Shown: in pieces, positions 1,018 to 4,924 of the stretch
Layout: every line of letters begins with the position of its first letter
Numbering within the stretch: position 1 is the stretch's first letter
From: Hyphomonadaceae bacterium
GTDB lineage: Bacteria > Pseudomonadota > Alphaproteobacteria > Caulobacterales > Aquidulcibacteraceae
Assembly: GCA_016791385.1 (NCBI GenBank)
Contig: JAEUMR010000038.1
Location: forward strand, 1 to 64,000
DNA length: 64,000 nucleotides
Direction of reading: 5' to 3'
Program-made: the position numbers and the translations under genes
The notes under the pieces: generated by a model
The model's database searches: none
Seen by the model: the letters and a program-made list of their open reading frames with translations, nothing else
What the model was told of the DNA's origin: nothing

Positions 1018-1841
1018 TCGCCGATCCGCACATCGACCGGCATGCCGGGCCGGATCGGGCCGGGCGCGTCGAGCCGCGCTTCAACCAGGAACACCAGCTT
1101 CTCGCGCTGATCGAGCGAGTAGATGACGGGCGGGGTGAATTGCGGTTCGCGGGCGATGAAGCTCACGCGCGCCGCGAGCGGGGTTTGACAGCCGTCGCAG
1201 GAGACGGCGACGCGCGCGCCGATCGCCAGCTGCGCCAGCATCGCTTCCGGCGCGAAGAAGCGCACCTTCATGTTCTGCGGCGGCAGCAGCGCAACAACGG
1301 GCTGGCCCGCAGTCACCACTTCGCCGGGGCGGCGGTAGATTTCTTCGATCGTGCCGGCTGCTGGCGCGACGCCATCGAGATCGCTCAGGCGCTGCTCGGC
1401 AAGATTGGTGGCGGCATAGGCCGCGCCCGCTTCACGCCGCGCTTGCGCCAGCTGCGCGTTGGCAGCGTCGAGTGCGGCGCGATCGGAATCGAGCCGCGCA
1501 CGCGGATAGAAGCCGCGCTCGAACAATTCGGCGCCGCGCGCGTAATTGCGCTGCGCCAAGGTCGCCTGCGCCTGCGCCGTGCGCACCGCCTGCGAAGCCG
1601 CCGCGCCTTGCGCGCTGGCCGATTGCGCGCTGTACGAAAGCCGGTCTGGGTCGAGCGCGAACACTTGCGCGCCAGCTTCCACGTGGTCGCCCTCGCGCAC
1701 ATTCAGCTGGCGCAGAACGCCGCTCTCCTGGCTGGCGAGATAGACATAATCCGCTTCGCCGTAGCCTTGCAGCACGCTGTCAGGCGCGCGCGCGCAGGCA
1801 AAACCCGCAAGCAAGAGCGGAAGCAACAGAAGGCGCTTCAT
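1014..1841 (-). CDS. HlyD/EmrA-family periplasmic adaptor (membrane fusion protein)
   Basis: The 275-residue product starts with a hydrophobic leader (MKRLLLLPLLLAGFACA), then a biotinyl/lipoyl-like half (SQESGVLRQLNVREGDHVEAGAQVFALDPD), a long Ala/Gln/Arg helical hairpin (about residues 75-145), and the second lipoyl half plus beta barrel (GTIEEIYRRPGEVVTAGQPVVALLPP). It would bridge the ABC pump to an outer-membrane channel or act as a tether. The lipobox is imperfect (GFAC), so lipid anchoring is uncertain. The start at 1841 was chosen because its ATG overlaps the TetR stop (ATGA) and begins a signal sequence; the frame is open upstream, but without one. Confidence 0.88.
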   Translation of the reverse strand: MKRLLLLPLLLAGFACARAPDSVLQGYGEADYVYLASQESGVLRQLNVREGDHVEAGAQVFALDPDRLSYSAQSASAQGAAASQAVRTAQAQATLAQRNYARGAELFERGFYPRARLDSDRAALDAANAQLAQARREAGAAYAATNLAEQRLSDLDGVAPAAGTIEEIYRRPGEVVTAGQPVVALLPPQNMKVRFFAPEAMLAQLAIGARVAVSCDGCQTPLAARVSFIAREPQFTPPVIYSLDQREKLVFLVEARLDAPGPIRPGMPVDVRIGE

Positions 1842-2464
1842 GAGCGCGGCTCCAATCCGTGCGTCAAGAGATCGATCTGGTTTTGAATCAGGTTTTCCGG
1901 CTGCGTGAGAGCGCTTTCGCCCCGCAGCACATGTGTCCATAGCGCTTCGAACAGCAGCGGGCCGACCAGCGCGCGAACGACGGCGTCCTTGTCGATGCGG
2001 CGGAACACGCCTTTGGCCATGCCGGCTTCGACCAGCGACTCGATCGCGCTGCGCGCCGTTTCGACCACATGTGTGCGGTAATATTCGGCAATCTCAGGGA
2101 AGCGGCCCGAGATGCCAATCACGAGACGCGGCACTGCGAACACAGCCGGATCGGCCAGGCGATGCGCGGCGGCGGTCGCCAGCACGCGCAGCGCCATCAT
2201 CGGATCGGCCTTGCCTGCCTCGGCCAGCGTCTTCGCCTGACGCGCCAGTGGCGACACCTTCGCCTCGATCAGCGCCTCAAGCAGAGCCAGCTTGGAGGTG
2301 AAGTAGAGATAGATCGCCGCTTTCGAGATCCCGGCCCGTTTGGCGATGTCTTCCATCCGGGCCGCGTCGAAGCCGCGAGCAGTGAACTCGGCCAAGGCGG
2401 CGTCCAGAATTTCTTCCGGACGCGCCTCAGCGCGGCGGCGCCACCGGGGGGAGGAGGGGACCAT
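1838..2464 (-). CDS. TetR/AcrR-family transcriptional regulator
   Basis: The product is a 208-residue repressor-type protein. The N-terminal helix-turn-helix is clear: EEILDAALAEFTARGFDAARMEDIAKRAGIS and on through KAAIYLYFTSKLAL, ending near residue 60. The rest is a helical ligand-binding and dimerisation domain. It is the first gene of the HlyD-ABC-permease operon, and its stop overlaps the HlyD start. A perfect palindrome lies only 7 bases before its ATG, which suggests autorepression and co-control of the pump. There is no convincing Shine-Dalgarno sequence between the palindrome and the ATG, so the transcript may be leaderless or nearly so. The inducer is unknown. Confidence 0.92.
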   Translation of the reverse strand: MVPSSPRWRRRAEARPEEILDAALAEFTARGFDAARMEDIAKRAGISKAAIYLYFTSKLALLEALIEAKVSPLARQAKTLAEAGKADPMMALRVLATAAAHRLADPAVFAVPRLVIGISGRFPEIAEYYRTHVVETARSAIESLVEAGMAKGVFRRIDKDAVVRALVGPLLFEALWTHVLRGESALTQPENLIQNQIDLLTHGLEPRS

Positions 2465-2534: not shown

Positions 2535-4082
2535 GTGCCCGCCGTCATGGCTCGTCACCCAGTTCTGGCGCAGAGGATGGCGTTGCGTGGGCGAGACGTT
2601 ATCTTGCCGCCGGGCGCGCGTGGGGAAGTGACCGTGGCAGAGCATCCGAGCGAAGAACGTACAATTCGATTGGCCTCGATCGTGTCGATCGACATCGTCG
2701 GCTTCTCAACCATGTCGGAGCGCGATCAGCGCAACGCAGCGCGCAAGGTCGAAGGGCTGCGCGCGCGCATCCAGACCGTGGCTGCCAAGCATGGCGGGCG
2801 CCTGTTCAACACCGCCGGCGACGGCTTCATGCTGGAGTTCGCCTCGGCCGGTTCTGCGCTCGGCGCGATCCAAGACATTCTCGACAAGCGCGCGAAGGGC
2901 GAGCCGCCGATCCGCGTCGGCGCGCACGTGGGCGACGTCGTCGTCACCGCGACGGAAGATTTGCTCGGCCACGGCGTGAACGTTGCGGCGCGGCTGCAGG
3001 AATTGGCGGAGCCAGGCACGGCGCTGGTTTCGGCCGAGTTTCGTTCTATGGCGCGCTCAAGTCCGACCGCCGCCTTCCAGGCGAAGGGGCAGAAGCCGCT
3101 CGAGAACATCGACCAGCGCGTGCAGACGTTCGAGATCTTGTCGCGCCGGCAGAAATTCGCGCGCATGACGCGGCGCGTCGCGGGCATTGCCGTAGCTGTG
3201 CTTGTGCTCGGCGCCGCCGCGTATTTCGGCCCCACCATTTGGGGTTTCGCGCAGCCCTACATCAACGGCGCGACCACCGAGCAAGGGACGGGGGCCGCCA
3301 CGACGACGGCGCCGCCGAATGAAATTATCGGCGAAGAAGTTGGCCCAACGCCGGTGACCTACACGGCCGGCCACACGATGACGGATTGCGCTTCGTGTCC
3401 GGAGATGGTCGTGATGCCGGGCGGGCTCTTCACCATGGGTTCGCCCGCAACCGAGGCGGGACGCGGCCGCGATGAGGGGCCGCAACGCGAAGTTTCGATC
3501 GCCCCGTTTGCAATGGGCAAGACCGAGATCACCTTCGCGCAATGGGACGCGTGCCTCGCTGGCGGCGGTTGCAATGGCTATTCGCCGAACGATGGCGGCT
3601 GGGGCCGCGGCAACCGGCCGGTTTCCAACGTCTCGTGGAACGACGTGCAATCCTATCTTGAGTGGCTGAACGCCCAGGCGGGCGGCTTGCGCTATCGCCT
3701 CGCAACGGAAGCTGAGTGGGAATACGCCGCGCGCGCCGGCGCGACGGATGCCTATGCGTTTGGGCCGCGCGTGACGGCGACCCAAGCAACCTACCGTGCG
3801 CGCCAGACGAGTCCTGTCGCTGCGCACGACGCCAATGCGTGGGGTCTGTTCGACATGCACGGCAATGTCGGCGAGTGGGTCGAGGATTGCTATGCAGCCT
3901 CTTACGACCTCGCGCCCATCGACGGGGCAGCGGTGCAGGCGGAGACTTGCGCCCGCCGGGTTTACCGCGGCGGCGGCTTCGCCGACCAGGCGCCGGTGCT
4001 TCGTGCTGCGGCGCGCCAATCGGCGCCGCCGGACCGCCGCATCGTCGGCGTGGGCTTCCGCGTGGCGCGCGCGCTCGACTGA
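2535..4082 (+). CDS. Membrane class III adenylate/guanylate cyclase fused to a SUMF1 (FGE-sulfatase) fold domain
   Basis: This is a 515-residue fusion. Residues 45-200 form a class III cyclase catalytic domain, with metal aspartates in SIDIVGFS (D53) and NTAGDGFM (D96) and the transition-state Asn/Arg in GVNVAARL (N149, R153). One membrane helix follows (about 214-232), then a linker, then a SUMF1 domain (about 290-513: MVVMPGGLFTMGS, RLATEAEWEYAARAG, FDMHGNVGEWVEDC, YRGGGF). The active-site cysteines of true formylglycine-generating enzymes after RGG are missing, so this domain is probably a ligand-binding or structural version. Six cysteines lie on the presumed periplasmic side. The GTG at 2535 has a poor Shine-Dalgarno; GTG 2634, just after GGGGAAG and 11 codons before the domain, is a good alternative start. 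A CpdA-like phosphodiesterase follows. Confidence 0.87.
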   Translation: MPAVMARHPVLAQRMALRGRDVILPPGARGEVTVAEHPSEERTIRLASIVSIDIVGFSTMSERDQRNAARKVEGLRARIQTVAAKHGGRLFNTAGDGFMLEFASAGSALGAIQDILDKRAKGEPPIRVGAHVGDVVVTATEDLLGHGVNVAARLQELAEPGTALVSAEFRSMARSSPTAAFQAKGQKPLENIDQRVQTFEILSRRQKFARMTRRVAGIAVAVLVLGAAAYFGPTIWGFAQPYINGATTEQGTGAATTTAPPNEIIGEEVGPTPVTYTAGHTMTDCASCPEMVVMPGGLFTMGSPATEAGRGRDEGPQREVSIAPFAMGKTEITFAQWDACLAGGGCNGYSPNDGGWGRGNRPVSNVSWNDVQSYLEWLNAQAGGLRYRLATEAEWEYAARAGATDAYAFGPRVTATQATYRARQTSPVAAHDANAWGLFDMHGNVGEWVEDCYAASYDLAPIDGAAVQAETCARRVYRGGGFADQAPVLRAAARQSAPPDRRIVGVGFRVARALD

Positions 4083-4087
4083 TTTGC

Positions 4088-4103
4088 TGTGACCGCGGGC
4101 ACA
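4088..4103. promoter_or_regulatory. CRP/CAP-like binding site (TGTGA-N6-GCACA)
   Basis: TGTGACCGCGGGCACA matches the TGTGA-N6-TCACA consensus of CRP-family proteins at 9 of 10 defined positions. It lies 6 bases after the cyclase stop and about 62 bases before the phosphodiesterase ATG. The location between a cAMP-making and a cAMP-degrading gene makes feedback control of the second gene plausible. A second palindrome, CATGGCG-CA-CGCCATG at 4113-4128, follows closely. Function is inference; a single site in a GC-rich genome could be chance. Confidence 0.45.
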
Positions 4104-4165
4104 GACAATGCACATGGCGCACGCCATGCTCGCCGTTTCGGGGGAGAGCGGCAGCTGGGGTGCGC

Positions 4166-4924
4166 ATGAGCGGCAAGTTCGTCCTTGCACAGATTTCCGA
4201 CACGCATGTCCGCGCCGACGATAGCGGCGAGGCGGCGCGTAAGCTGCGCTGCGCGCTCAAGCAGGCGCGCCAGTACCAAGCCGATGTCATCTTGCTCACC
4301 GGCGATCTGGTGAACGATGAGCGGCCCGAAGAATACGCGGCGCTCAAGCATGCGCTGGCCGATCCGCCGGCGCCGCTGTTTCTGATGCCAGGCAACCATG
4401 ACGACCGCGATCTGATCCGGCGCACCTTCCCTGAGCACGATTACCTGCCGCGCGAGGGCTTCCTTTCGTATGCCATCGAGCACTTCCCGATCCGCGTTGT
4501 CGCGCTCGACCAGATCGTTCCAGGTGAGACGCACGGCCTGCTCACGCCGCCGCAGGCTGACTGGCTCGACCGCACGCTGAGCGCCGGGCCGGATCGGCCG
4601 ACGCTGCTCGCGCTGCACCATCCGCCATTCCTAACTCACGATGTTCTGTTCGATCGCATCGGTCTCTTAGACGCCGGCCTCCTGGCGCCGGTGGTAGCGA
4701 AACACCGCCAGGTAATGCGCGTGATCTGCGGGCACCATCATCGCGTCGCGATCGGGCAGATTGCGCACGCGCCAGTCATCGTCGCGCCCTCTACCTCATG
4801 GGTGTACGGCTTGGCGTTGTCCGACGAGCAGCCGATCGCGCCGGTAACGCCGGAGCAAACCGGATGGATGCTGCACGTCTGGACGGAGAGCGGCGGTTTC
4901 GCCAGCCATTTCATGGGAATTTGA
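4166..4924 (+). CDS. CpdA-like metallophosphoesterase (probable 3',5'-cyclic nucleotide phosphodiesterase)
   Basis: The 252-residue calcineurin-type phosphoesterase carries all five metal motifs: D12-x-H14 in ISDTH, GD at 46-47, GNHDD at 76-80, HH at 151-152, and GHHH at 189-192. Length and motif spacing fit class III cyclic nucleotide phosphodiesterases (CpdA/Rv0805 type) better than larger phosphatases. It would hydrolyse cAMP or cGMP in the cytoplasm. The ATG at 4166 follows a GGGG-containing site and begins a compact domain; the frame upstream is open but only antisense-like. Adjacency to the cyclase and a CRP-like box supports cyclic nucleotide turnover, though other phosphodiester substrates are possible. 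Confidence 0.85.
   Translation: MSGKFVLAQISDTHVRADDSGEAARKLRCALKQARQYQADVILLTGDLVNDERPEEYAALKHALADPPAPLFLMPGNHDDRDLIRRTFPEHDYLPREGFLSYAIEHFPIRVVALDQIVPGETHGLLTPPQADWLDRTLSAGPDRPTLLALHHPPFLTHDVLFDRIGLLDAGLLAPVVAKHRQVMRVICGHHHRVAIGQIAHAPVIVAPSTSWVYGLALSDEQPIAPVTPEQTGWMLHVWTESGGFASHFMGI

Follow-up and report, generated by a model that had tools for sequence, protein, structure and literature searches.

A conserved CRP-type palindrome upstream of a phosphodiesterase gene in Hyphomonadaceae: a probable activator site of a promoter class that also precedes 30-residue peptide genes

Introduction

In Pseudomonas aeruginosa, the CRP-family protein Vfr directly activates cpdA (PMC13001225, citing Fuchs 2010; this paper and the others named here are cited from excerpts), and activation of a cAMP phosphodiesterase gene by a CRP-family protein constitutes negative feedback. 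In Sinorhizobium meliloti, alphaproteobacterial class III cyclases, the regulator Clr and a class III phosphodiesterase are clustered (cyaD1-clr-spdA); according to the excerpt of PMC4222275, spdA expression needed neither clr nor cAMP, and rhizobial SpdA cleaved 2',3'-cyclic nucleotides and acted hardly or not at all on the 3',5' forms. In Escherichia coli, class II CRP promoters usually have their site centred at -41.5, where it overlaps the -35 element (excerpt of PMC2859248).

The locus analysed here lies in a 64-kb stretch of DNA (the window) from a Hyphomonadaceae bacterium and combines traits of these systems. Its proposed logic is, by analogy, that of Vfr and cpdA; unlike cpdA, the window gene has a receptor-like cyclase gene as its neighbour, the host is an alphaproteobacterium and the class of site is common to a family of peptide genes. 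The gene content resembles that of the S. meliloti cluster, from which it would differ if the phosphodiesterase gene is CRP-dependent and its product acts on another nucleotide than SpdA does. The window site fits the S. meliloti Clr core GTNNCNNNNGNNAC and differs at two positions from the S. meliloti sequence HGTYHCNNNNGRWACA (excerpt of PMC10127613). CRP-driven phosphodiesterase feedback is thus of a known kind, and the peptide regulon is the more novel part.

Results and discussion

The palindrome and its position in the window

The features of the locus are as follows:

2634..4082, + strand: class III nucleotide cyclase with a membrane span and a C-terminal PvdO/FGE-like domain
4088..4103, + strand: CRP-type palindrome TGTGACCGCGGGCACA, from sequence and conservation across 21 loci
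4104..4111, + strand: conserved downstream extension GACAA..C of phosphodiesterase promoters, from the 21-locus comparison
4125..4130, + strand: -10-like hexamer CATGCT, 22–27 nt after the site end, with xAxxxT at the same offset in relatives
4166..4924, + strand: calcineurin-like (class III) phosphodiesterase of 252 residues, the putatively regulated gene

The palindrome starts 6 nt after the cyclase stop (ORF end 4082), ends 62 nt before the phosphodiesterase ATG (4166) and is the sole copy of TGTGACCGCGGGCACA in the window. It agrees with TGTGA-N6-TCACA at 9 of 10 positions, which confirms the original prediction of such a match, a weak one by itself: a search of the 64 kb with up to one mismatch returned 1 match against 0.57 expected, with at least one match in 45 of 100 shuffles, and with up to two mismatches 11 matches against 11.7 expected. 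The window alone therefore gives the palindrome no significance, which speaks for a chance palindrome devoid of function; its significance derives from conservation among relatives.

Conservation and attachment to the phosphodiesterase gene

The comparison set consisted of 60 genomes of the family, 30 of them in the host's genus, the host assembly being 83% complete. Conservation was counted over the 21 of 30 genus genomes (the window's included) with an adjacent cyclase-phosphodiesterase pair and a readable gap. The nine left out were seven genomes giving no phosphodiesterase match at an E of 1e-20, several of them incomplete (G036, G038, G041, G044, G049, G057 and G059), one with the phosphodiesterase gene at a contig end, where the 21 nt upstream cannot be judged (G048), and one with the gene about 2.3 kb from the cyclase (G055). 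Each of the 20 relatives in the genus that have the adjacent pair carries a site with at most two mismatches to TGTGACCNNGGGCACA, an exact one in 15 cases: the expectation that relatives keeping the gene pair would also keep the site is thereby borne out. The chance of such a site is about 0.001 per relative in mononucleotide shuffles, a figure that is not a strict probability since the relatives are not independent, some pairs being close. Across the 21 loci 12 of the 16 columns of the site are invariant, and 12-mers of the gap that start 3' of it (from 4104 on) recur in just 1–4 of the 21. Chance alone was accordingly rejected: given the 20 of 20 relatives, the tethered distance described next and the genus-wide pattern with zero control matches described below, a palindrome without function has next to no probability.

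The distance from the site to the phosphodiesterase start is 55–96 nt (sd 7.6), and that from the cyclase stop to the site 6–222 nt (sd 57.5; 21 loci each), with about 0.2 kb of additional sequence separating cyclase and site in L025 and L027. Seven cyclase-orthologue loci without an adjacent phosphodiesterase gene (L030, L032–L035, L037 and L038) have no site within about 1.4–1.5 kb downstream. In G055, the genome with the separated genes, 64 nt separate a degenerate copy, CGTGACTTTGGGCACA, from the phosphodiesterase match downstream, and the hexamer at +22 is CAGTTT. Across 79 of 80 loci of phosphodiesterase relatives, a site with at most two mismatches was found only in nine (L202–L206 and L208–L211), all on genus contigs; its absence from relatives outside the genus is a rough test, as the assumed match position is wrong for several distant loci. 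The steady distance to the phosphodiesterase gene, the variable distance to the cyclase gene and the absence of the site where no phosphodiesterase gene is adjacent identify it as an element of the phosphodiesterase promoter. Thus the original placement between the two genes is correct in that the site lies in the gap, and less apt in that it follows the phosphodiesterase gene rather than the gap.

A CRP site was also sought 5' of the cyclase gene: among the 20 of 21 loci readable there, no generally conserved site was found, and as only three (L022, L023 and L025, which may form a subgroup) have one with at most two mismatches, this candidate was rejected. Separately, L030 has one similar palindrome, TGTGACGCAGGTCACG, upstream and beyond crp.

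Promoter geometry

Directly after the site, G at +1 and C at +3 are invariant in 21/21 loci and C at +8 is found in 19. An xAxxxT hexamer occupies +22 to +27 from the site end in 13 of the 21 loci, compared with 0–5 of 21 at other offsets up to +37; it is missing at +22 in the other eight, and the window's own version, CATGCT, is weak. The corresponding transcript start is predicted at about 4137, which would place the site centre at -41.5. Palindrome, -10 at fixed spacing and centre are those of the E. coli class II promoters, from which the window differs in that its start is predicted, not mapped. This spacing favours activation and thereby argues against a repressor site, the second form of an alternative taken up with the regulator below. 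We regard the palindrome as, very probably, a genuine activator site of the CRP type that serves the phosphodiesterase gene.

A genus-wide promoter class preceding 30-residue peptide genes

The pattern TGTGNCCNNGGNCACA occurs at 45 sites in 23 of the 30 genus genomes, compared with 2 for the reversed pattern, and 21 of the 45 are the phosphodiesterase sites. Site, spacing and YANNTT together give 41 matches in 18/30 genus genomes and none in reverse; the CATGCT of the window keeps its site out of this set. Four of the 41 were not fetched and one repeats another's sequence, and the 36 distinct promoters examined precede 29 genes for 30-residue peptides, two phosphodiesterase genes, two copies of a 44-residue frame, one 153-residue frame and, in two cases, nothing recognisable. 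In the 30 family genomes of other genera, the looser YANNNT is matched 21 times, over 13 genomes, and the control once: seven of the 21 are in G023, with peptide genes following in five of these seven loci, and g2 and g8, genera that lack the peptides, have other matches.

The peptides resemble MTKFYALIAACAVFAPMAFATLNQAAQIVA and are often encoded in tandem, with conserved QAA.IVA ends on host contigs G000:C45 (L062) and G000:C76 (L063) and in the relatives L119–L121, L126, L127 and L144–L171. Of the 60 family genomes, 35 are positive with a peptide profile; they comprise 29 of the 30 genus genomes, all four of g3 and, with weak matches (E 4.1e-4 and 3.2e-5), a single genome in g9 and another in g11. 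The host genome has 11 copies, none of them in the window, where just weak chance matches were obtained. The unbiased count rests on 30 loci returned by the profile and not chosen by site: 28 of 32 first-in-array peptide genes have a site with at most two mismatches at the exact spacing, and on a 25-gene set (23 loci) both shuffled and reversed upstream sequences gave 0 sites. Over all 129 peptide genes, many of them chosen by the presence of the site, 107 have it (at most two mismatches, within 300 nt), 106 of these with the spacing. Variability at codon positions 1, 2 and 3 (97 distinct frames) is 0.172, 0.100 and 0.339, and a most variable third position is the behaviour of coding sequence.

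Pfam and NCBIfam searches with four of the peptides returned nothing at E 0.1, and a literature search with four peptide sequences and with small-protein, Caulobacter and CRP topics produced no relevant paper, some papers being represented by their titles and abstract openings. The 30-residue family thus appears to be undescribed, and the peptide regulon looks new. If the family holds as undescribed, it would give a CRP regulon a defined output of small proteins, and its promoters would form a simple set for tests of ligand and binding.

Two observations on the transcripts and frames behind these promoters may be added. L066 and L125 have the 44-residue frame, which is hydrophobic (MTAAMTEMAHDARN...) and unlike the 30-residue family. 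Rfam models gave nothing at the gathering threshold on the leaders of 16 loci, and over 33 leaders (31 not belonging to phosphodiesterase genes, two belonging to them) the mean hairpin z was about -1.0. Since hairpins are clear in many leaders and absent from several, a conserved RNA structure is not claimed; L120, L121, L153, L164 and others have a short hairpin directly after the predicted start of the peptide leader.

The candidate regulator

Seven cyclic-nucleotide-binding matches were found in the host genome. The candidate CRP is encoded at G000:C62:10492-11181: its cyclic-nucleotide-binding domain has the pocket residues GE and RS, and its helix-turn-helix domain has the recognition helix SREKVNR, of the RE...R type that reads TGTGA. 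These are the hallmarks of a CRP/Clr protein, and both domains score over their cut-offs (PF00027, 65.6 bits; PF13545, 50.8 bits); the older Pfam Crp helix model PF00325 gives 13.4 bits, below its cut-off of 21. Among 37 homologues the pocket G is found in 37, E in 35, and R and S in 37, and RE...R in 35. The roles of these residues are in part those given in an excerpt of PMC10127613. Mycobacterial CRP is the best match of solved structure, and those ranking after it include S. meliloti Clr (7pza) and E. coli CRP.

In 27 of the 30 genus genomes, including all 23 in which the phosphodiesterase was found, an orthologue is present, in G053 divided between two frames; G038, G044 and G049 have neither the orthologue nor a phosphodiesterase match. 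Outside the genus, homologues of at least 59% identity occur in g3 (3 of 4), g9 and g11, the genera that also have the peptides; homologues of 50–52% in g10 and g14 (2/3) have no peptide match alongside. A site-bearing peptide gene is found in the flank of 8 of the 27 genus crp loci. In G023, crp and the cyclase-FGE gene are immediate neighbours and share a strand, crp coming first; of 37 crp loci, no other has this cyclase domain in its flank.

A second CRP-family protein of the host, on G000:C81 (L003, L010), also has an RE...R helix and is encoded near a weak cyclase match; it is perhaps part of another cyclic-nucleotide module. That this or another CRP/FNR-family regulator binds the window site, or that the site is a repressor site, is an improbable alternative. 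It draws on the helix QREAVTR of L010 and on its distance of about 0.4 kb from the cyclase match; it is opposed by the shared distribution of the C62 homologues and the peptides over g3, g9 and g11, by the peptide genes flanking crp and, for repression, by the -41.5 spacing. We lean towards the C62 protein as the regulator of both the peptide genes and the phosphodiesterase gene.

The enzymes and the identity of the nucleotide

The open frame of the cyclase starts at 2535, and its start codon is placed near 2634 from where relatives align. The cyclase domain covers approximately residues 12–170, followed by one predicted membrane span (182–200), and PF00211 scores 28.8 bits against a cut-off of 21.9. 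D20, D63, N116 and R120, the two metal-binding aspartates and the transition-state Asn and Arg, are present in 30/30 orthologous loci. The same 30 loci have Asn and His (N59 and H113) at the two usual specificity positions, those of the adenine-specifying Lys/Asp pair of class III adenylate cyclases: the metal and transition-state residues of a class III cyclase are thus found, and the Lys/Asp pair is not. The C-terminal region is an FGE-sulfatase domain (PF03781, 174 bits) closest to PvdO, with 171.2 bits for the PvdO equivalog NF051459, below the cut-off of 500. In L037–L040 (G057, G059, G055 and G051, respectively) the cyclase-orthologue match stops at about residue 210–230, so that cyclase and membrane span are kept and the FGE-like domain seems to be lost.

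A further point concerns the regulator: 32 of the 37 CRP homologues have Ala in the C-helix where mycobacterial CRP has Thr, a cAMP-contacting residue. This replacement suggests that cAMP may not be the ligand of the CRP.

The phosphodiesterase scores 58.9 bits with PF00149 and contains the class III metallophosphoesterase motifs as given in the excerpt of PMC4222275, with D12, H14, D47, N77, H78, H152, H190 and H192 invariant in 15 sequences. For CpdA (PRK11148), which the original prediction likened it to, the score is 97.6 bits, below the cut-off of 225. The protein is likewise below the cut-off for SpdA (NF050112, 2',3'-cyclic nucleotide phosphodiesterase; 90.6 against 400 bits), and its best solved relative is 2zo9, named "Phosphohydrolase".

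These properties bear on a second reading, in which a CRP-family activator does act at the site, and the ligand or the enzymes are not those of 3',5'-cAMP (e.g. cGMP, or a 2',3'-cyclic nucleotide phosphodiesterase), the phosphodiesterase gene being a member of the regulon with no closed cAMP loop. The cyclase Asn/His pair in 30/30 loci, the scores below both the CpdA and SpdA cut-offs, the 2zo9 relative and the SpdA precedent are all consistent with it, as is the ability of S. meliloti Clr to use either cAMP or cGMP (excerpt of PMC10127613). The pairing of cyclase and phosphodiesterase genes and the adjacency of crp and cyclase in G023 suggest, on the other hand, one common nucleotide, and we regard this second reading as rather unlikely.

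The proposed circuit

Our preferred reading comprises a class II CRP promoter of the phosphodiesterase gene, delayed negative feedback and control of the peptide genes by the same CRP; we put its probability as a whole at about 0.66. In this circuit the cyclase would raise the level of its cyclic nucleotide, whereupon a CRP-family protein, most probably the one encoded at G000:C62:10492-11181, would bind the site at -41.5 and recruit RNA polymerase to the phosphodiesterase gene by class II activation. The phosphodiesterase then made would remove the cyclic nucleotide, which would amount to delayed negative feedback, and the same CRP would turn on many 30-residue peptide genes through similar promoters. 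Of the self-limiting cAMP circuit first proposed, control of the phosphodiesterase and negative feedback are well supported by conservation, class II spacing, the CRP orthologue and the genus-wide promoters; cAMP itself, as the nucleotide made and hydrolysed, is called into question by the Asn/His pair, the score below the CpdA cut-off and the SpdA precedent. Weighing against the preferred reading are also the weak -10 of the window and its mismatch with the YANNTT pattern, the eight loci that lack the hexamer, the low PF00325 score, the divided CRP of G053, the C-helix Ala, the second CRP-family protein and the clr-independent expression of S. meliloti spdA. The conserved promoter element points to feedback on a cyclic-nucleotide signal that can be put to the test, in an environmental group that has been little studied.

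A larger loop can be imagined for Terricaulis-like Hyphomonadaceae, linking the receptor cyclase with its predicted periplasmic PvdO/FGE-like domain, the CRP, the phosphodiesterase and, as the main output, the peptides, in which a released decapeptide would be sensed by the outer domain of the cyclase. In many of the peptides, a conserved decapeptide (TLNQAAQIVA-like) comes after an A-x-A like that of signal-peptidase sites. In G023 most peptides carry Pro where cleavage would occur, and this speaks against release in that genome. We consider this closed loop improbable, and in its full pheromone-like form it is a guess.

Neighbouring TetR region

On the other side of the cyclase gene, a TetR-family gene (1838–2464, minus strand) faces it and precedes secretion-protein-like and ABC-transporter genes. 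Directly upstream of this gene, at 2472–2495, lies the perfect palindrome ATATAACTGACCGGTCAGTTATAT, which is nearly identical in L026 and is probably a TetR operator.
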